Virus record (IMG/VR): IMGVR_UViG_3300034190_001120
Coordinates: 1 to 26,097 of that record
Origin: a virus
DNA: 26,097 nucleotides
Strand: one strand, 5' to 3'
Made by a program: the position numbers and the translations under genes. The notes under the pieces were generated by a model. The model was given only the letters and a program-made list of their open reading frames with translations, searched no databases and was not told the DNA's origin. Of this stretch, positions 709 through 23,591 are shown in pieces (position 1 is the stretch's first letter; the number at the start of each line of letters is the position of its first letter).

Positions 709-745
709 TGATCTGCCTGAAGAAGGAATGGATATAGTGCTATGA
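698..745 (+). CDS. Possible 15-aa coupling peptide
   Basis: ATG 698 opens a 15-codon frame (MANNDLPEEGMDIVL) whose TGA overlaps the next gene's start as ATGA (742-745), and which itself overlaps the end of the 499-708 gene. Such an arrangement could let ribosomes pass on to the metallopeptidase gene at 742, where I see only a weak ribosome site. It is too short to judge as a real product, and chance is a fair alternative. Confidence 0.25.
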   Translation: MANNDLPEEGMDIVL

Positions 746-1200
746 GTGATAGATGGATAAGATATTGCTTAATAGATAGCTATGTCAAGGAAGAACTTGT
801 GCGATACTATATCTGTAATTTGTTTCGTGAGCTAAACATACATAGATTATCCAGCAAGTGTGTTGATATAGAGTTTGTTGATGAAATAGATGATCAGTCG
901 CAGGGTGAAGCGATTGGTGATAAAGACGATGTGTCCATAAAGATTGCTAGAAACTCGTGCGGAGCAAGTATGAGTTTTCTCAATCAGATGCAGACATTAG
1001 CGCATGAGATGGTTCACACTAAACAGTTTCTTAGAGGAGAGTTAGGCTACGATTCTAAGGGAAACTTTAAATGGAAAAAAGAAGTCGTGGAAGGAAAGAA
1101 GTACACTGAGCAGCCTTGGGAGCTAGAAGCTACCAGTTTAGAGAGATCGTTATTTCTCAAATGCTTTCCTTTTGATGAAGAGAAAACAGAGCTATTATGA
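742..1200 (+). CDS. Zincin-like metallopeptidase (SprT-like)
   Basis: This 152-residue protein carries the zinc protease signature HExxH at residues 88-92 (TLAHEMVHTKQF), followed by a short spacer and the segment EQPWELEA (residues 123-130), where a glutamate (E127 or E129) is the likely third zinc ligand. This is the layout of the small SprT-like/zincin proteins of phages and bacteria. Bacterial and eukaryotic relatives cleave proteins bound to DNA; the phage substrate is unknown. No signal peptide is seen, so it should act in the cytoplasm. It starts in an ATGA overlap and ends in another (1197-1200), so it sits in a translationally coupled run. Zinc peptidase fold is secure; biological role is inference. 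Confidence 0.8.
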   Translation: MSDRWIRYCLIDSYVKEELVRYYICNLFRELNIHRLSSKCVDIEFVDEIDDQSQGEAIGDKDDVSIKIARNSCGASMSFLNQMQTLAHEMVHTKQFLRGELGYDSKGNFKWKKEVVEGKKYTEQPWELEATSLERSLFLKCFPFDEEKTELL

Positions 1201-7742: not shown

Positions 7743-8594
7743 ATGATATTGGTAGATATGAACCAAGTCATGATCGCAAATATGATGATGCAAATAGGCA
7801 ATCATCAAAACGCAGAAATAGACGTGAATATGCTTAGGCATATGATTCTTAATACGCTACGCTCTAATCGTAAGAAGTTCGGTGACGAGTTTGGTGAACT
7901 GGTTATCTGCTGTGATGACAAGAATTACTGGCGTAGACAGATGTATCCATATTATAAAGCTAATCGTAAGAAGTCACGAGATAGCTCTGAATTAGATTGG
8001 AATGCTATTTTTCAAGCACTCAATACGATTCGTGATGAGCTAAAGACCTTCTTTCCGTACAAAGTTATTCAGATTGAGACCTGTGAAGCTGATGATATCA
8101 TTGGCACAATTGCTCACGAAGAAGGTACAGCACTAAACACCGGTGAGCCCATTCTTGTTCTCTCTGGCGATAAGGATTATGTACAGTTGCAAAGCTACGC
8201 AAACGTGAAGCAGTATGATCCAGTGAGAAAGCGTTGGATATCTAACTCTAATCCTGAGAAGTATTTGGCAGAGCATATTCTTAAGGGTGATGCTGGTGAC
8301 GGTATACCAAATGTCTTGTCTCCTGACAATTGCTTTGTTATGGGAATACGCCAGCGACCAGTTACACAGAAAAGAATAGCCGAATGGACAGATATAAATA
8401 ATATGCAGGAAGAAGTAAAGCGGAATTATATGCGAAACAAAGCATTGATAGATTTGACTGAAGTGCCTCAGGGTATGAAAGATGAAATCTTGAGTGCTTG
8501 GCGTGAAGAAGATGGTAGAGATAGAAGTCAGCTATTGAACTATTTTATCAAAAACAAACTAAGAAACTTAATGGAATGTATAGGGGAATTTTAA
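7743..8594 (+). CDS. rnh: T4-type RNase H / 5'-3' exonuclease (FEN-1 family)
   Basis: At 283 residues it is close to T4 RNase H (305). The metal-binding acidic residues of the FEN-1/5' exonuclease family are all visible: D5 (ILVDMNQ), D58-D59 (CCDDKNYWRR), the EADD cluster (E115, D117, D118), D143 and D145 (LSGDKDY), and the helix-hairpin-helix with D183 and D186 (KGDAGDGIPN). The arginine/lysine-rich helix after YYKANRKK would clamp the 5' flap. In T4 this enzyme removes RNA primers and short flaps on the lagging strand. Ribosome site TAGGAG at 7730-7735, with its own promoter upstream. Confident by motif order and spacing. Confidence 0.92.
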   Translation: MILVDMNQVMIANMMMQIGNHQNAEIDVNMLRHMILNTLRSNRKKFGDEFGELVICCDDKNYWRRQMYPYYKANRKKSRDSSELDWNAIFQALNTIRDELKTFFPYKVIQIETCEADDIIGTIAHEEGTALNTGEPILVLSGDKDYVQLQSYANVKQYDPVRKRWISNSNPEKYLAEHILKGDAGDGIPNVLSPDNCFVMGIRQRPVTQKRIAEWTDINNMQEEVKRNYMRNKALIDLTEVPQGMKDEILSAWREEDGRDRSQLLNYFIKNKLRNLMECIGEF

Positions 8595-8595
8595 G

Positions 8596-9066
8596 ATGTC
8601 TACAGTATCCTTGGCAGAGATAGTAAACACTGCTCGTGAAGCGGAAAGTAATGAAGAGAAAGTCTCAATTTTAAGAAAGAATGATAGTCGTCCACTCAGA
8701 GATATTCTAGCTCTAATGTGTGACGCAAGATGGACTTTTGATTTGCCCAGTACTCCACCACCATACAATGAGTCTGTGATCCATGAGTCCCATGGTATGT
8801 TGTATCGTGAAATGCGAAAGATGCCGTACCTCGTGACTCAGATGAACGAAGGCGCTAACTTAAATCGATTGAAGAAAGAAGCTATGTTTATTCAGATGCT
8901 TGAGTCTATTGATCCAGATGACGCTAAACTGCTATTGAGAACTATAGCAAAAGAGCCATATCCAGACCTTTCTCCTGAAGTTATTAACGAAGCATTTCCA
9001 GGTGGAATAGTTGAGCCAATAGCAGTTAAGCGAGGTCGTGGTCGACCAAAGAAGAACGAGTCATAG
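8596..9066 (+). CDS. DUF6433-like protein
   Basis: This 156-residue protein matches the pattern I recall for DUF6433, a family found in T4-like marine phages: an N-terminal stretch ending ILRKNDSRPLRDIL, then TFDLPSTPPPY, AMFIQMLESIDPDDAKLLL and ELPYPxLSPEVINEAFP-type segment (here EPYPDLSPEVINEAFPG). The extreme C terminus RGRGRPKK is an AT-hook-like motif, which would favour minor-groove DNA contact. It starts two bases after the RNase H stop, with GGGGAA inside that gene as ribosome site, so it may work with replication. Function is unknown; DNA association is inferred. Confidence 0.75.
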   Translation: MSTVSLAEIVNTAREAESNEEKVSILRKNDSRPLRDILALMCDARWTFDLPSTPPPYNESVIHESHGMLYREMRKMPYLVTQMNEGANLNRLKKEAMFIQMLESIDPDDAKLLLRTIAKEPYPDLSPEVINEAFPGGIVEPIAVKRGRGRPKKNES

Positions 9067-9075
9067 GAACGTAGC

Positions 9076-9219
9076 ATGAGTAAGGGTAAAAGTAAGAAAT
9101 TTCGTGAATGGGTTGATGAAGATTTTGATGTTAAAAAAGATACCAAAAGGTACGATAAAAGCAAGTCTGATATCCAGAAAGCGAGAAAAGAGAAGCGGAA
9201 GAGCCGAGACTCTTACTAA
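9076..9219 (+). CDS. Small basic protein, 47 aa
   Basis: ATG 9076 follows AGGAACG (9065-9071). The product MSKGKSKKFREWVDEDFD ends with a Lys/Arg-rich stretch (KARKEKRKSRDSY). It is highly charged, has no hydrophobic core, and is probably disordered alone. It sits between the DUF6433-like and cytochrome genes. Too short for family recognition. Confidence 0.6.
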   Translation: MSKGKSKKFREWVDEDFDVKKDTKRYDKSKSDIQKARKEKRKSRDSY

Positions 9220-9242
9220 CAATTATATAATTGGAGATTGAA

Positions 9243-9551
9243 ATGAAGCACCTTTCAGTAATGTTTTTATTATCAGTGATGTCACTATCTTCGTTCGCTA
9301 CAGCGGGTGATCCAGATGCGGGTAAAGCACGTTCTGCTTCCTGTGCTGGTTGTCATGGAGCATATGGAATCAGTAATAGTCCTATGTTTCCTAATCTAGC
9401 TGGTCAGAAAGAACTCTATCTTGTGTCTGCTCTTAAGCAGTATCGTGATGGAGTACGTAATAACCCTATGATGTCAGGAATGGCAAAAGGATTATCTGAT
9501 GCAGATATCGCTAACATAGCCTCTTACTATACAAACTTAAAGCAGGATTGA
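9243..9551 (+). CDS. Periplasmic class I cytochrome c
   Basis: The product is 102 residues. Residues 1-21 are a Sec signal peptide ([15 protein letters not shown] core, cut expected after ATA). The mature protein has one haem attachment site C34-A-G-C37-H38 and a methionine-rich segment M76-M-S-G-M80 holding the likely distal iron ligand, with the C-terminal helix [14 protein letters not shown] typical of c553/c4-like cytochromes. Such proteins carry electrons in the periplasm, usually from the bc1 complex to a terminal oxidase. Maturation would need the host Ccm system. I use ATG 9243, with GGAG at 9233-9236; an upstream TTG (9231) is rejected. All motifs are intact and base composition is like its neighbours. 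A cytochrome in a T4-like genome is unusual. Confidence 0.9.
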
Positions 9552-9553
9552 TT

Positions 9554-9763
9554 ATGAAAAATCGTAGAGCCGATTTAATCGCCACATCAATGTCATATAT
9601 GCAAGCTCAAGCGGGCAAGCACAAAATGAATATTGATGTATTATTAGACAATTCAGTTGGTGTAGCAGAGCATCCAGATATCATGGAAACCATTGAATCT
9701 GAGCTAGAGAAGATGACCGAGTACTGTGACAAGTACGAAATGTTAGAGAAGTACTTCAAATAG
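9554..9763 (+). CDS. Small helical protein of unknown function, 69 aa
   Basis: Starts at ATG 9554, two bases after the cytochrome stop. The sequence MKNRRADLIATSMSYMQAQ has a short basic start and then a helical, Glu-rich part (DIMETIESELEKMTEYCDKYEML). It is soluble, with no signal peptide. Close spacing implies co-translation with the cytochrome gene, but no functional link can be drawn from sequence. Confidence 0.6.
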   Translation: MKNRRADLIATSMSYMQAQAGKHKMNIDVLLDNSVGVAEHPDIMETIESELEKMTEYCDKYEMLEKYFK

Positions 9764-9771
9764 GAAGAGTG

Positions 9772-10350
9772 ATGAACAACAATATAATATTGGTAGACTG
9801 TGATGGAGTCCTAGTTGATTGGTTACATAGCTTTCGACTTTGGATGAAAGAGAAAGGCTACACTCAACAGGCAAAAATCGAAGAATATGACTTGGCTACA
9901 TCATACGGGCTAGAGAAGCCTGAGATGAAGAAGCTGATTCGCCACTTCAACGAAAGCGCAACTATGTGTTGCTTACCACCGCTTCGAGACGCTGTGAAGT
10001 ATGTCAAGAAGATTCACGAAGAGTTAGGATACGTATTCCACTGTATCACTAGCCTATCTACTGATCGATACGCTGTGCAGTTACGAGAGCAAAACATCAA
10101 GAATCTGTTTGGTGATACCGCTTTTGATATGATCGAATGTCTTGATACTGGTGCTGATAAGGATGATGCTTTACTACCTTACTTAGATAGTGGATGTCTC
10201 TGGATAGAAGATAAAATTTCTAACAGCGAGTTAGGTGATAGATTGGGACTAACATCAATCCTTATGTCCCATACTCATAACAAACATTATGAGAGTGAGA
10301 CTATTACGATTGTCCAGAACTGGAAAGAAATATACGAAATGCTTACCTGA
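9772..10350 (+). CDS. HAD-family hydrolase, 5'(3')-deoxyribonucleotidase-like
   Basis: The 192-residue protein has HAD motif I as ILVDCDGVLVDW, with nucleophile D9 and general acid D11, a motif II-like turn at HCITSLSTDR, and a later acidic motif at WIEDKISN. Motif I followed by 'VDW' and a helical cap is the layout of phage and bacterial 5'(3')-deoxyribonucleotidases, which remove phosphate from dNMPs; polynucleotide phosphatases and other HAD enzymes remain possible. The start ATG 9772 has AGGAAGAG directly upstream. It is the last gene of the operon started at 7683 and is followed by a late promoter. Confidence 0.8.
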   Translation: MNNNIILVDCDGVLVDWLHSFRLWMKEKGYTQQAKIEEYDLATSYGLEKPEMKKLIRHFNESATMCCLPPLRDAVKYVKKIHEELGYVFHCITSLSTDRYAVQLREQNIKNLFGDTAFDMIECLDTGADKDDALLPYLDSGCLWIEDKISNSELGDRLGLTSILMSHTHNKHYESETITIVQNWKEIYEMLT

Positions 10351-10362
10351 GGTATCATGTAG

Positions 10363-10370
10363 TATAAATA
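10363..10370 (+). promoter_or_regulatory. T4-type late promoter (TATAAATA)
   Basis: A perfect TATAAATA box stands 63 bases before the FmdB-like gene, and no -35 box is near. T4 late promoters have this -10 box, read by gp55. The start site would be near 10376, so the transcript would begin with the hairpin at 10378-10408. A second box with seven of eight matches occurs at 10411-10418. Confidence 0.65.
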
Positions 10371-10377
10371 TGAATAT

Positions 10378-10408
10378 AGTAGGGGGTGATCTAGTATTGC
10401 TCCCTACT
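10378..10408 (+). other. Hairpin at the expected 5' end of a late transcript
   Basis: AGTAGGGGG (10378-10386) pairs with CTCCCTACT (10400-10408) over nine base pairs, one of them G-U, with a 13-base loop. It lies just downstream of the late promoter and could protect the late mRNA. No T-run follows; it may alternatively end upstream transcripts. Confidence 0.5.
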
Positions 10409-10433
10409 TCTATAAATCGGAGAAACTAATATA

Positions 10434-10667
10434 ATGCCTATATATCAATACAAAAATGAAGATACTGGTGAAATAAGTGATCATTATATGTCTATTGCTG
10501 CCATGCAACAGTTCGACATAGACAATCCTAATATGAAGAAAATCATCCATGCGCCAGCAATTGGTGATCCCATTCGCTTGGGAATTACGAAGACTCCAGA
10601 TAGCTTTAACGATATGCTAAAGACGATTAAGAAGAATAATGCGGGGTCTACAATAGAAACCAGATAA
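10434..10667 (+). CDS. FmdB-like T4-phage small protein
   Basis: At 77 residues, it opens MPIYQYKNEDTGEI, like the start of FmdB-type regulators (MPIYEY...), but lacks the CxxC zinc ribbon of true FmdB proteins. The rest, HAPAIGDPIRLGITKTPDSF then MLKTIKKNNAG, is the form seen in a T4-like phage family often labelled 'FmdB-like'. In such phages it usually lies beside structural or PhoH genes, as here. The late promoter upstream suggests late expression. Ribosome site CGGAGAA at 10418-10424. Function unknown. Confidence 0.7.
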   Translation: MPIYQYKNEDTGEISDHYMSIAAMQQFDIDNPNMKKIIHAPAIGDPIRLGITKTPDSFNDMLKTIKKNNAGSTIETR

Positions 10668-10677
10668 GGAATTATGA

Positions 10678-11433
10678 ATGCCTGCAAAACAACAAGAACG
10701 ACTAACTAAAAGGCAGAGACGAGTACTAAGACAGCAAGGAGTCTTAGACACAGATAATCAACTTTCATCAGGATTTTCAGTTCAGAGTGATATTGCTCCA
10801 TTGACTGATAATCAGGCTTCAGCCTTTGAGTCTTGGGATGAAGGTCAGAACTTAATGTTACACGGTATTGCAGGAACGGGTAAGACGTTTCTAGCACTCT
10901 ACTTCGCTCTCAAAGAGACGTTGAAGACGAATACGCCGTATAAGAAAGTGTTCATCGTTCGATCAATTGTTCCAACTAGAGATATTGGATTTCTACCCGG
11001 TAGTCAGAAAGATAAGATGAAGGTGTACGAAGGTCCATACTATGACATATGTAACAAGCTTTTAGGCAGAGGCGATGCATATGAGATACTCAAGCAACGG
11101 AACAACATAGAGTTTATATCTACTTCTTTTCTTCGAGGATCTACGTTCGATGACTGTATCATTGTGGTCGACGAAATGCAAAATATGAGTGATCAAGAAT
11201 TGCACACCGTAATGACTCGTGTTGGTGAGAACTGTAGAATCATATTCTCTGGTGATGTAAAGCAGGATGACCTTACTAGCGAGAGAAAGAAAGAGCTTTC
11301 TGGACTCAAGACGTTTATGCGGATTATCAGTAACATGAAGCAATTCGACTTTGTAGAGTTTCTAGCCGATGATATCGTGAGAAGTGGTTTAGTGAAAGCA
11401 TACATAATAGAAAGAGATAAACAAGGTCTATAG
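10678..11433 (+). CDS. phoH: PhoH-like P-loop ATPase
   Basis: This 251-residue protein has a basic N terminus (TKRQRRVLRQQG), Walker A GIAGTGKT at residues 63-70, the motif FIVRSIVPTRDIGFLPG, Walker B IIVVDEMQN at 161-169 and the motif III-like SGDVKQ at 191-196. These define the PhoH family, related to the superfamily 1 helicase core and very common in marine T4-like phages. Bacterial PhoH2 proteins are RNA helicases when linked to an RNase; the role of phage PhoH is unsettled, and phosphate control is not proven. Placed between the FmdB-like gene and the tail spike genes in a late transcription unit. Confidence 0.92.
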   Translation: MPAKQQERLTKRQRRVLRQQGVLDTDNQLSSGFSVQSDIAPLTDNQASAFESWDEGQNLMLHGIAGTGKTFLALYFALKETLKTNTPYKKVFIVRSIVPTRDIGFLPGSQKDKMKVYEGPYYDICNKLLGRGDAYEILKQRNNIEFISTSFLRGSTFDDCIIVVDEMQNMSDQELHTVMTRVGENCRIIFSGDVKQDDLTSERKKELSGLKTFMRIISNMKQFDFVEFLADDIVRSGLVKAYIIERDKQGL

Positions 11434-12294: not shown

Positions 12295-12600
12295 ATGCCA
12301 GCACCCTCAGCAAGAGTAGGAGATGCAATTATCACAGGTCACGCTTGTAGTGCAACATCTACTATCGCATCCTCATTACAGGCTAAAGTAATCGTAGCAG
12401 GTTCGATTGCCGCAGTCACAGGCAGTCCTATCGCTCCTCATACAATTCTAGCAGGTTCTTCTTGTGTACCTCATGCCGCTAAAACACTAGCAGGATCACC
12501 AAAGGTGTTCTTTGGTGGAATCCCCGCAAATCGAATTGGAGATGGTGCTGATCAGGGCGCAATCATATCTGGCGCACCAAACGTCATCATCGGACCATAA
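12295..12600 (+). CDS. PAAR-domain tail-spike tip protein
   Basis: The whole 101-residue protein is a PAAR domain: a small alanine/glycine/proline-rich protein with repeats of short strands and buried His/Cys residues (GDAIITGHACSATS, SPIAPHTILAGSSCVPHAA, then GIPANRIGDGAD). PAAR proteins form a sharpened cone at the end of the contractile-tail spike and bind one metal ion; T4 gp5.4 is the phage example. Candidate zinc ligands are H16, C18, H48, C56 and H59. It ends the late operon, and a strongly palindromic promoter element begins four bases later. Confidence 0.85.
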   Translation: MPAPSARVGDAIITGHACSATSTIASSLQAKVIVAGSIAAVTGSPIAPHTILAGSSCVPHAAKTLAGSPKVFFGGIPANRIGDGADQGAIISGAPNVIIGP

Positions 12601-18482: not shown

Positions 18483-18558
18483 GGGCCCATAGCATAACGG
18501 TTAATGCATCCGACTCATAATCGGCAGACTCTTGGTTCAAATCCAAGTGGGCCCACCA
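18483..18558 (+). tRNA. tRNA-Met or tRNA-Ile2 (anticodon CAT)
   Basis: Cloverleaf: acceptor GGGCCCA/TGGGCCC, D arm GCAT/ATGC, anticodon loop CTCATAA, T arm CTTGG/CCAAG, encoded CCA. With anticodon CAT it is either methionine or, if C34 is changed to lysidine by TilS, isoleucine for ATA codons. The GC-rich acceptor recalls tRNA-Ile2 but does not decide. The first anticodon-stem pair is mismatched (T-C). Confidence 0.93.
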
Positions 18559-18578
18559 TCTTTAAAATAGAGATTATT

Positions 18579-18782
18579 ATGTGTAAATATAGAATCATTA
18601 AGCATACTAGAGAATACCATAACACTTACTATGAAGTACAGAAGAAGTCCTTTCTAGGCTTTTGGTATAACTTCAATAACATTGATGGATGCACGACTGG
18701 ATTATATGAAAAAGAAGCGGATGCCCGACTAGCTATATCCATGCATCGATCAAGGAATGTCAAGACTGTTATCGACATATAG
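18579..18782 (+). CDS. Small protein inside the tRNA array, 67 aa
   Basis: I use ATG 18579; an earlier in-frame ATG (18504) lies inside the tRNA and is rejected. The product MCKYRIIKHTREYHNTYYEV is basic and aromatic, with a beta pattern (KSFLGFWYNFNNIDGC) and a helical end. The ribosome site is weak (AGAG, 18569-18572). No family recognised. It is the only protein gene between the tRNA genes. Confidence 0.55.
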   Translation: MCKYRIIKHTREYHNTYYEVQKKSFLGFWYNFNNIDGCTTGLYEKEADARLAISMHRSRNVKTVIDI

Positions 18783-18823
18783 CACTGGACCACCATTTTT
18801 TAAAGATATAAGTAAGTAACAAC

Positions 18824-18899
<76 letters not shown>

Positions 18900-18906
18900 A
18901 TTTATT

Positions 18907-18960
18907 CCCTAGCGTGGTAAAACACAATATAACGCAATCAGACGATCACTGGGGCTTTTT
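18907..18960 (+). terminator. Possible terminator-like structure between tRNA genes
   Basis: CCCTAG (18907-18912) can pair with CTGGGG (18949-18954), one pair being G-U, followed by C and a TTTTT run (18956-18960). The loop is long (36 bases), so termination is doubtful; it may instead be a decayed tRNA spacer. Confidence 0.3.
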
Positions 18961-18962
18961 AA

Positions 18963-19033
18963 GCGGGTATAGCATAGTGGTAATGCACTAGCCTTCCAAG
19001 CTAAGTAGTGGAGTTCGATTCTCCATACCCGCT
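18963..19033 (+). tRNA. tRNA-Gly (anticodon TCC)
   Basis: Acceptor GCGGGTA/TACCCGC, D arm GCAT/ATGC, anticodon loop CTTCCAA, T arm TGGAG/CTCCA, discriminator T. CCA is not encoded (CAA follows), unlike the other tRNAs here. One anticodon-stem pair (C27-A43) is mismatched. Reads GGA. Confidence 0.92.
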
Positions 19034-19128
19034 CAATTTTATGTTCCGTTCGTCTAGTTGGTTAGGACACCGGGTTTTCATCTCGGCAACAGGGGTTCGA
19101 ATCCCCTACGGAATACCATTTTCGGAGT
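19027..19128 (+). repeat. Tandem duplication unit 1 around tRNA-Glu
   Basis: Runs from the 3' acceptor of tRNA-Gly to the first six bases of a tRNA-Pro copy; repeated at 19130-19232. Confidence 0.9.
19043..19118 (+). tRNA. tRNA-Glu (anticodon TTC)
   Basis: Acceptor GTTCCGT/ACGGAAT with a G-U first pair, anticodon stem CCGGG/CTCGG with loop TTTTCAT, T arm AGGGG-TTCGAAT-CCCCT, discriminator A and encoded CCA. Reads GAA, a very common codon in this window. It is the first of two tandem copies. Confidence 0.95.
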
Positions 19129-19129
19129 C

Positions 19130-19232
19130 ACCCGCTCAATTTTATGTTCCGTTCGTCTAGTTGGTTAGGACACCGGGTCGTCATTCTCGGAAACAGGGGT
19201 TCGAAACCCCTACGGAATACCATTTTCGGAGT
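19130..19232 (+). repeat. Tandem duplication unit 2
   Basis: Second copy of 19027-19128, one base longer; the only differences (four substitutions and one insertion) are inside the tRNA gene. Confidence 0.9.
19146..19222 (+). tRNA. Remodelled tRNA-Glu duplicate, anticodon region GTC-like, possible pseudo-tRNA
   Basis: Same acceptor, D and T stems and CCA as the tRNA at 19043. The anticodon region became TCGTCATT: either an eight-base loop on the intact CCGGG/CTCGG stem, or a seven-base loop on a weakened stem. Either way the central triplet is GTC (Asp), but the normally invariant U33 is C. The T loop changed to TTCGAAA. It may be a decaying duplicate, a new tRNA-Asp in the making, or a frameshift-type tRNA. 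Confidence 0.6.
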
Positions 19233-19303
19233 ATAGCACAGCTTGGTAGTGCGCTCGCTTTGGGAGCGAGAGGTCGTAAGTTCGAATCTTACTACTCCGA
19301 CCA
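19227..19303 (+). tRNA. tRNA-Pro (anticodon TGG)
   Basis: Acceptor CGGAGTA/TACTCCG, D arm GCAC/GTGC, anticodon stem CTCGC/GCGAG with loop TTTGGGA, T arm GTAAG/CTTAC, discriminator A, encoded CCA. Reads CCA and others in the Pro box. Last tRNA of the array. Confidence 0.96.
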
Positions 19304-23089: not shown

Positions 23090-23445
23090 AATATAAAATC
23101 ATCCAAATGAAGCTCACTGATGAGCAGTTCAATATTGTGAATCGGCGTAAAGAGGGAGAGCCTATGGCTGACTTCTACAAGATTTATCAAGATGCGAATA
23201 TGTTTCCCAACAAAGAAAAGATCGAGACTGCTCTTGCGGCAGATATGTACGATCATGTTGCGAACATCGAAGCCGATAACTTGAACGCTGTTTTCCATAT
23301 TGGTAATCAGGGCCCTTGGGATAGAGTTGAATATCTTGAGAATAAGTTCAATCGAACTATGCACTCGATCAGTGTTGGTGATATTGTCGAAGGTGAAGAC
23401 GGTAATCGATACTTCGTTGACTTTTCTGGCTTCGGAGAGCTATGA
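23086..23445 (+). CDS. YodL-like domain protein, 119 aa
   Basis: Starts in an ATGA overlap. The N-terminal part (MKYKIIQMKLTDEQFNIVNR) begins with a short strand, the middle is alpha-helical, and the C-terminal 35 residues read NRTMHSISVGDIVEGEDGNR then YFVDFSGFGEL, which matches the YodL-type ending I recall ('HS-SVGDI-...G-YYV--FGF-E-'). YodL-like domains occur in phage and plasmid proteins and sometimes beside antirestriction genes; the biochemical role is unknown. I call the domain by eye only. Ends in an ATGA overlap with a membrane protein. Confidence 0.6.
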   Translation: MKYKIIQMKLTDEQFNIVNRRKEGEPMADFYKIYQDANMFPNKEKIETALAADMYDHVANIEADNLNAVFHIGNQGPWDRVEYLENKFNRTMHSISVGDIVEGEDGNRYFVDFSGFGEL

Positions 23446-23591
23446 GCGCCTGGCTGATCGCAGTCACTGGTCTAATCTATCTTTATGTTGGGTTAGAGCA
23501 GTGGCTTAAATTTCAAAATCTTCCTATGTTGCTGACGTACATCGGCTATGCTTTCGCCAACATAGGACTTTATATGCTTGCGAGTAAGTAA
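23442..23591 (+). CDS. Two-helix membrane protein, 49 aa
   Basis: Starts in ATGA and its stop joins the gp4 start as TAATG. Membrane segments lie at about residues 4-18 (WLIAVTGLIYLYVG) and 27-46 (LPMLLTYIGYAFANIGLYML), separated by a short polar loop (EQWLKFQN). This pattern recurs in small phage membrane proteins I recall, with no function. Positioned directly before a head completion gene. Confidence 0.65.
   Translation: MSAWLIAVTGLIYLYVGLEQWLKFQNLPMLLTYIGYAFANIGLYMLASK

Follow-up and report, generated by a model that had tools for sequence, protein, structure and literature searches.

We analysed a 26-kb fragment of viral DNA (26,097 nucleotides, positions 1 to 26,097 of the IMG/VR record IMGVR_UViG_3300034190_001120, hereafter the window) from a T4-like phage and found that it carries the gene of a predicted periplasmic cytochrome c552. 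Cytochromes c are small haem proteins, and bacteria use them as electron shuttles in respiration. What is new here is the place of this gene: it occupies an exchangeable slot and not a fixed place. Our results suggest that phages of this group support the host respiratory chain during infection. Heterotrophic marine bacteria draw their energy mainly from aerobic respiration. That phages support the energy metabolism of their hosts is well documented in the case of photosynthesis, but hardly so in that of aerobic respiration.

Cytochrome gene and protein

The cytochrome gene is a complete open reading frame (Table 1), and its GGAG ribosome-binding site is kept in every contig with the window-type gene. 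The product matched the Cytochrom_C profile (PF00034, E = 2.4e-9, better than the Pfam cut-off). Its closest relatives among solved proteins are P. aeruginosa cytochrome c4 (E = 1e-28), Marinobacter (P. nautica) c552 (E = 5e-26) and Colwellia c552 (E = 1.7e-25). Together with the phage genes around it, these matches confirmed a first-pass annotation of the window, which had proposed a c-type cytochrome in a T4-like phage genome. The same annotation had listed a signal peptide, an intact CAGCH haem site, a methionine-rich distal-ligand segment, a C-terminal helix and a good ribosome site, and each of them was recovered here, the signal peptide and the helix as predictions. Across 44 aligned phage and bacterial proteins, C34, C37, H38 and M77 are among the invariant positions; the two haem thiols and the two axial ligands are therefore predicted to be intact. 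Within the methionine-rich segment we assign the distal ligand to Met77, which aligns with the P-x-M of c552 proteins, because it is invariant while the neighbouring Met76 and Met80 are variable. The latter two were thus rejected as candidates.

The AlphaFold model had a mean confidence (pLDDT) of 86.7, with 94–98 across residues 21–100; only the signal peptide and the very C-terminal end had low values. Confidence was low for residues 1–20 and the folded domain starts at about residue 21; the mature cytochrome would have about 81 residues and a net charge of about +1. Predicted helices at residues 24–38, 57–69, 75–81 and 86–97 give a class I fold with N- and C-terminal helices. Using Foldseek, the predicted fold was matched to Colwellia c552 (4o1w) with a root-mean-square deviation of 0.6 Å and a TM score of 0.98, and also to the c4 domain of the P. 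aeruginosa bc1-cbb3 supercomplex (8smr). One CxxCH motif in 102 residues indicates a single haem domain, and a putative export signal stands at its N-terminus. Judged by motif, distal methionine, modelled fold and export signal, the protein is a class I monohaem cytochrome c of the c552 or c4-domain type.

Distribution and selection

The cytochrome was found in ten further IMG/VR contigs from ten metagenome datasets, with 97–99% amino acid identity among full-length copies (two of the contigs, L009 and L010, end well inside the gene) and with the gene order of the window as far as each contig extends. These counts refer to the best 80 loci per search and to contigs of which some are perhaps reassemblies of the same samples. 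Since the gene order recurs in ten contigs, chance is excluded, and the shared junctions rule out contamination or a chimera. In addition, a different T4-like phage, L096 (RNase H 52% identical), encodes a 76% identical cytochrome; in this phage the gene lies downstream of RNase H and DUF6433 at a somewhat greater distance. The gene thus belongs to phages and is not bacterial contamination. It is also rare, as the first-pass annotation had supposed: tblastn at E 0.01 against 50,697 phage records gave no match, nor did PHROGs or the BFVD folds match the window cytochrome, and a scan with the L096 cytochrome as query turned up no further lineage.

Comparison of the window and L096 cytochromes gave a nonsynonymous divergence (dN) of 0.136 and a synonymous divergence (dS) of 0.93, a ratio of about 0.15. 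The pooled ratio of nonsynonymous to synonymous polymorphism (pN/pS) among close copies was 0.24, based on few changes. These ratios indicate that the cytochrome is under purifying selection, and with all ligands kept they agree with the earlier view of the gene as intact and no remnant. Its GC content at third codon positions (0.28) is phage-like when compared with the phage mean (0.37) and with the bacterial orthologues (0.40–0.60), and the gene therefore appears to be long resident in phages. Synonymous sites are saturated between the RNase H genes of the window and L096 but not between their cytochromes, which suggests exchange between phage lineages.

Two other genes stand close to the L096 cytochrome. 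Adjoining it downstream is the gene of a 49-residue hydrophobic protein (L096:8305-8454), perhaps another exchanged small membrane protein, with a 90% identical homologue at window positions 23442–23591, 14 kb from the window cytochrome. Shortly downstream lies a Nol-like carbamoyltransferase gene (phrog_1601, L096:9362-10789), a known auxiliary gene.

An exchangeable slot

We surveyed contigs with an RNase H at least 83% identical to that of the window and defined the slot as the space between the gene of a 47-residue protein and the phrog_1811 or NT5C gene. The slot contained the cytochrome in 11 contigs (window included) and an AhpC/TSA peroxiredoxin in 21, and it was empty, with gaps of 18–69 bp, in 10; three more were cut by contig ends. 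The peroxiredoxin has 170–171 residues (for example L104:7522-8037 and L131:4490-5002, and in 19 other viral contigs), and its best match in phage records is only 38% identical. On the RNase H tree, the three slot states need five changes versus a minimum of two; slot content has therefore turned over among close relatives. This qualifies the first-pass placement of the cytochrome in a phage replication operon: the neighbours named there (RNase H, DUF6433, HAD hydrolase) are present, but the gene is exchangeable cargo inserted into the RNase H block and not a fixed member of the operon.

Sliding-window comparison revealed that positions 9225–9750 are about 95–100% identical between contigs, while the flanks, on one or both sides, are often only 72–82% identical. 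The whole cytochrome gene has 97–99% DNA identity between contigs with diverged flanks. The cytochrome and phrog_1811 genes therefore appear to move together by recombination. Across window positions 7743–11433, comparison with L001–L007 showed a strongly mosaic structure: diverged allele types exist both of RNase H/DUF6433 and of NT5C, and they recombine around the conserved cytochrome and PhoH genes.

A second, distant monohaem cytochrome c of 105 residues is encoded in two contigs of sister phages (those of L147 and L149, RNase H 77% identical). It is 39–41% identical to the window cytochrome over the core and sits elsewhere, between homologues of window positions 742–1200 and 1340–1621. 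In the L149 contig it directly follows a gene for a redoxin-family peroxiredoxin, and the L147 contig starts inside the peroxiredoxin gene. The same pair was found in L316 (95% and 92% identity). In L317 the second cytochrome (75%) stands without a peroxiredoxin, which rules out an obligatory pairing. Because the L147 and L149 proteins are identical, this amounts to three distinct instances, two of them with a peroxiredoxin. That cytochrome and peroxiredoxin share a position twice hints at a common redox problem during infection, but is suggestive and no proof.

Bacterial origin

In an IQ-TREE phylogeny of 90 rows, the ten phage proteins formed one clade (support 100/100), nested in a 100/97 clade that also holds nine bacterial proteins, from records labelled Porticoccaceae, SAR92, Cellvibrionales or uncultured Pseudomonadales. 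The phage cytochrome was thus probably taken from SAR92-type (Porticoccaceae) bacteria. A comparison with cytochromes c553 and c4 had been proposed in the first-pass annotation; the protein is indeed c4-domain-like, but instead of a c553 it is a c552 of apparent Porticoccaceae/SAR92 origin.

At all nine loci of the clade, the bacterial orthologue lies directly downstream of COX15/CtaA (haem A synthase) on the same strand. The candidate host genomes encode the bc1 Rieske protein (9/9), COX1 (8/9) and, for cytochrome c maturation, CcmH (7/9), and a subunit II gene with CxxCH was present in each of the six COX1 loci checked, therefore pointing to a caa3-type oxidase. Given this linkage and the presence of bc1, a caa3-type oxidase and CcmH, the bacterial protein is most simply a shuttle between bc1 and the oxidase. 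With possibly a few exceptions the candidate genomes are metagenome-assembled, so that absences from them are weak evidence.

Proposed role and alternatives

The simplest view of the phage copy is that it, like the bacterial orthologue, shuttles electrons from bc1 to the oxidase. Independent assemblies (the window and ten contigs) place the gene among viral genes, and it has the traits of a host-derived metabolic gene, intact and selected, as auxiliary metabolic genes have. In our reading, which we hold to be fairly probable, it encodes a periplasmic monohaem c552 from a Porticoccaceae/SAR92-related gammaproteobacterium that tops up the host's shuttle. T4-like marine phages would have captured the gene from such a bacterium and now keep it as an exchangeable cassette. 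The pre-protein would be exported by Sec and loaded with haem by the host Ccm system. It would then join the soluble cytochrome c pool and carry electrons from bc1 to the caa3-type terminal oxidase, so that respiration and ATP supply could be maintained while host genes are shut off. We infer expression, export, haem attachment, the redox partner and the benefit to the phage from sequence.

Flow from bc1 to a terminal oxidase had already been suggested in the first-pass annotation. It fits the bacterial orthologue, which neighbours haem A synthase in genomes that also encode bc1 and a caa3-type oxidase; it is the leading reading but not the sole one, because close relatives have a peroxiredoxin in the same slot. 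Several points weigh against it. The cytochrome is dispensable, since close relatives do well with a peroxiredoxin or an empty slot, and given these slot states it may serve redox defence instead. Net charge is 0 or +1 in the phage proteins versus +3 to +5 in the bacterial orthologues, which may change partner preference. The present-day host is probably SAR92-like/Porticoccaceae, as indicated by gene ancestry only.

The main rival, serious though in our judgement unlikely, is peroxide defence. The cytochrome could feed a periplasmic dihaem cytochrome c peroxidase of the host, or keep the chain oxidised and so lower the formation of reactive oxygen, and would then stand in for the peroxiredoxin with which other phages fill this slot. 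The 21 close relatives with AhpC/TSA peroxiredoxin speak for this, as do the two distinct contigs in which the second cytochrome directly follows a peroxiredoxin and the CCP_MauG peroxidase encoded in five of the nine candidate host genomes. However, CCP_MauG is absent from the three smallest genomes of the candidate clade (metagenome-assembled and perhaps incomplete), and the neighbour of the bacterial orthologue is haem A synthase, not a peroxidase. The phage peroxiredoxins have no obvious export signal and hence would work in another compartment than the cytochrome; in L317 the second cytochrome stands without a peroxiredoxin, and a common slot need not mean a common function.

Small optional cargo genes of phages are frequently takeover or exclusion factors, and the lowered net charge would also fit a protein that works against the host cytochrome pool, by competing with it or diverting it, perhaps to stop respiration or to keep out a second phage. 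We consider such interference improbable, because the fully kept ligands and purifying selection fit a working carrier better than a decoy. It is very improbable that the cytochrome passes its electrons to some other enzyme of the periplasm, for example a nitrite reductase, the partner proposed for Marinobacter c552: sequence and fold closely match this c552 (1cno), but the cd1 nitrite reductase profile (PF02239) had no match in the nine candidate host genomes, and on this ground we rejected that partner. Hardly credible, finally, is a mere passenger, recently acquired or an artefact of assembly or contamination; its absence from many close relatives would suit this, but it conflicts with the synteny in ten further contigs from ten datasets, the phage-like composition, purifying selection and the diverged copy in L096.

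Taken further, the bc1-to-oxidase shuttle would be part of a dedicated redox slot, filled with a cytochrome c or a peroxiredoxin, by which T4-like phages of marine heterotrophs tune respiration and peroxide stress of their non-photosynthetic hosts. We put this forward tentatively, as somewhat short of probable. If true, phages would for the first time be shown to have a soluble electron carrier of respiration, and phages of heterotrophs would tune respiration and peroxide stress as cyanophages tune photosynthesis. The three slot states (cytochrome, peroxiredoxin, empty) are a natural experiment on the redox problem that infection creates, and a selected, intact c552 in phages that probably infect SAR92-like bacteria makes a need for fresh cytochrome c directly testable.

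Comparison with known systems

The monohaem c552 proteins of marine gammaproteobacteria (Colwellia 4o1w, Marinobacter/P. nautica 1cno) share length, signal peptide, haem site and distal methionine with the phage protein, with folds within 0.6–1.0 Å and 56–59% identity over the structural alignment; the phage protein differs in being phage-encoded and in a net positive charge below that of its nearest bacterial orthologues. Cytochrome c4, including the one in the P. aeruginosa bc1-cbb3 supercomplex, is dihaem; each of its domains agrees with the phage protein in fold and in the order of motifs, whereas the phage protein has a single haem domain. Plastocyanin of T4-like cyanophages is likewise a small electron carrier and is thought to maintain electron flow during infection. 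By analogy the two may be counterparts, although plastocyanin is a copper protein of photosynthesis, and the cytochrome a haem protein that would act in heterotroph respiration.

Among reported viral genes, soxC and soxD are phage auxiliary genes, SoxD being a c-type cytochrome subunit encoded on viral contigs; both reported soxD copies lack the second haem motif and one also lacks the first (PMC8190135). SoxD is a subunit of a thiosulfate oxidation enzyme and no mobile shuttle. The cytochrome b5 of Nucleocytoviricota (PMC11814380) is also a virus-encoded haem electron carrier, but belongs to eukaryotic viruses and an unrelated family with b-type haem. A study of marine phages carrying denitrification genes states that it saw neither cytochromes nor other electron carriers in its phages (PMC8115048), and cbb3 oxidase sequences were reported from a viral size fraction (PMC3474794). 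We found no soluble phage cytochrome c in the open-access literature; since subscription papers and preprints were mostly outside this search, we claim no priority.

Neighbouring genes and further features

Table 1. Features of the window around the cytochrome gene, and loci of the second cytochrome
Feature	Position	Strand	Remark
T4-type RNase H / 5'-3' exonuclease, PF02739/PF09293	7743..8594	+	upstream marker of block
DUF6433 protein, PF20025, phrog_461	8596..9066	+	Pfam, PHROGs
47-residue basic protein	9076..9219	+	left border of variable slot
Exchange cassette, cytochrome and phrog_1811 genes	9225..9763	+	near-invariant, 97–100% DNA identity between contigs with 72–82% identical flanks
Ribosome-binding site GGAG	9233..9236	+	6 nt 5' of ATG; read from sequence
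Cytochrome c552 gene	9243..9551	+	102 residues, ATG start, TGA stop; complete
Predicted signal peptide, residues 1–21, cleavage after ATA	9243..9305	+	sequence and its conservation
Covalent haem site C34-A-G-C37-H38	9342..9356	+	proximal ligand His38; invariant in 44 homologues
Met77, predicted distal axial haem ligand	9471..9473	+	invariant in 44 homologues
phrog_1811 gene	9554..9763	+	travels with cytochrome
NT5C / HAD-type 5'-nucleotidase, PF06941, phrog_420	9772..10350	+	right border gene
PhoH-like protein	10678..11433	+	end of syntenic block
Second cytochrome, CASCH motif	L307:219-536, L308:5312-6173		contigs 3300018417_000945, 3300018416_000098; also L316, L317

The window and Sinorhizobium phage phiM12 share a T4-type replication gene order (RNase H, DUF6433, NT5C, with PhoH beyond); in phiM12, RNase H, two small genes, NT5C and PhoH follow in matching order without a cytochrome. 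The T4-type gp23 capsid profile (PF07068) was matched in the long contigs of two relatives (L136 and L198). No T4-like late promoter TATAAATA lies directly 5' of the cytochrome gene; the window has three copies of the motif, at 8393 (within the RNase H gene), 10363 and 19367.

Elsewhere, the window has a tRNA cluster at 18483–19303 (Met, Thr, Gly, Glu, Pro and one of undetermined type with the four-base anticodon call 'gtca') and a separate tRNA-Arg(TCT) at 405–480. A Cpn10/GroES-like co-chaperonin is encoded at 2554–2832 (Pfam E = 1.9e-13), and a PAAR-motif protein, right at the Pfam cut-off and possibly a tail spike tip, at 12295–12600.
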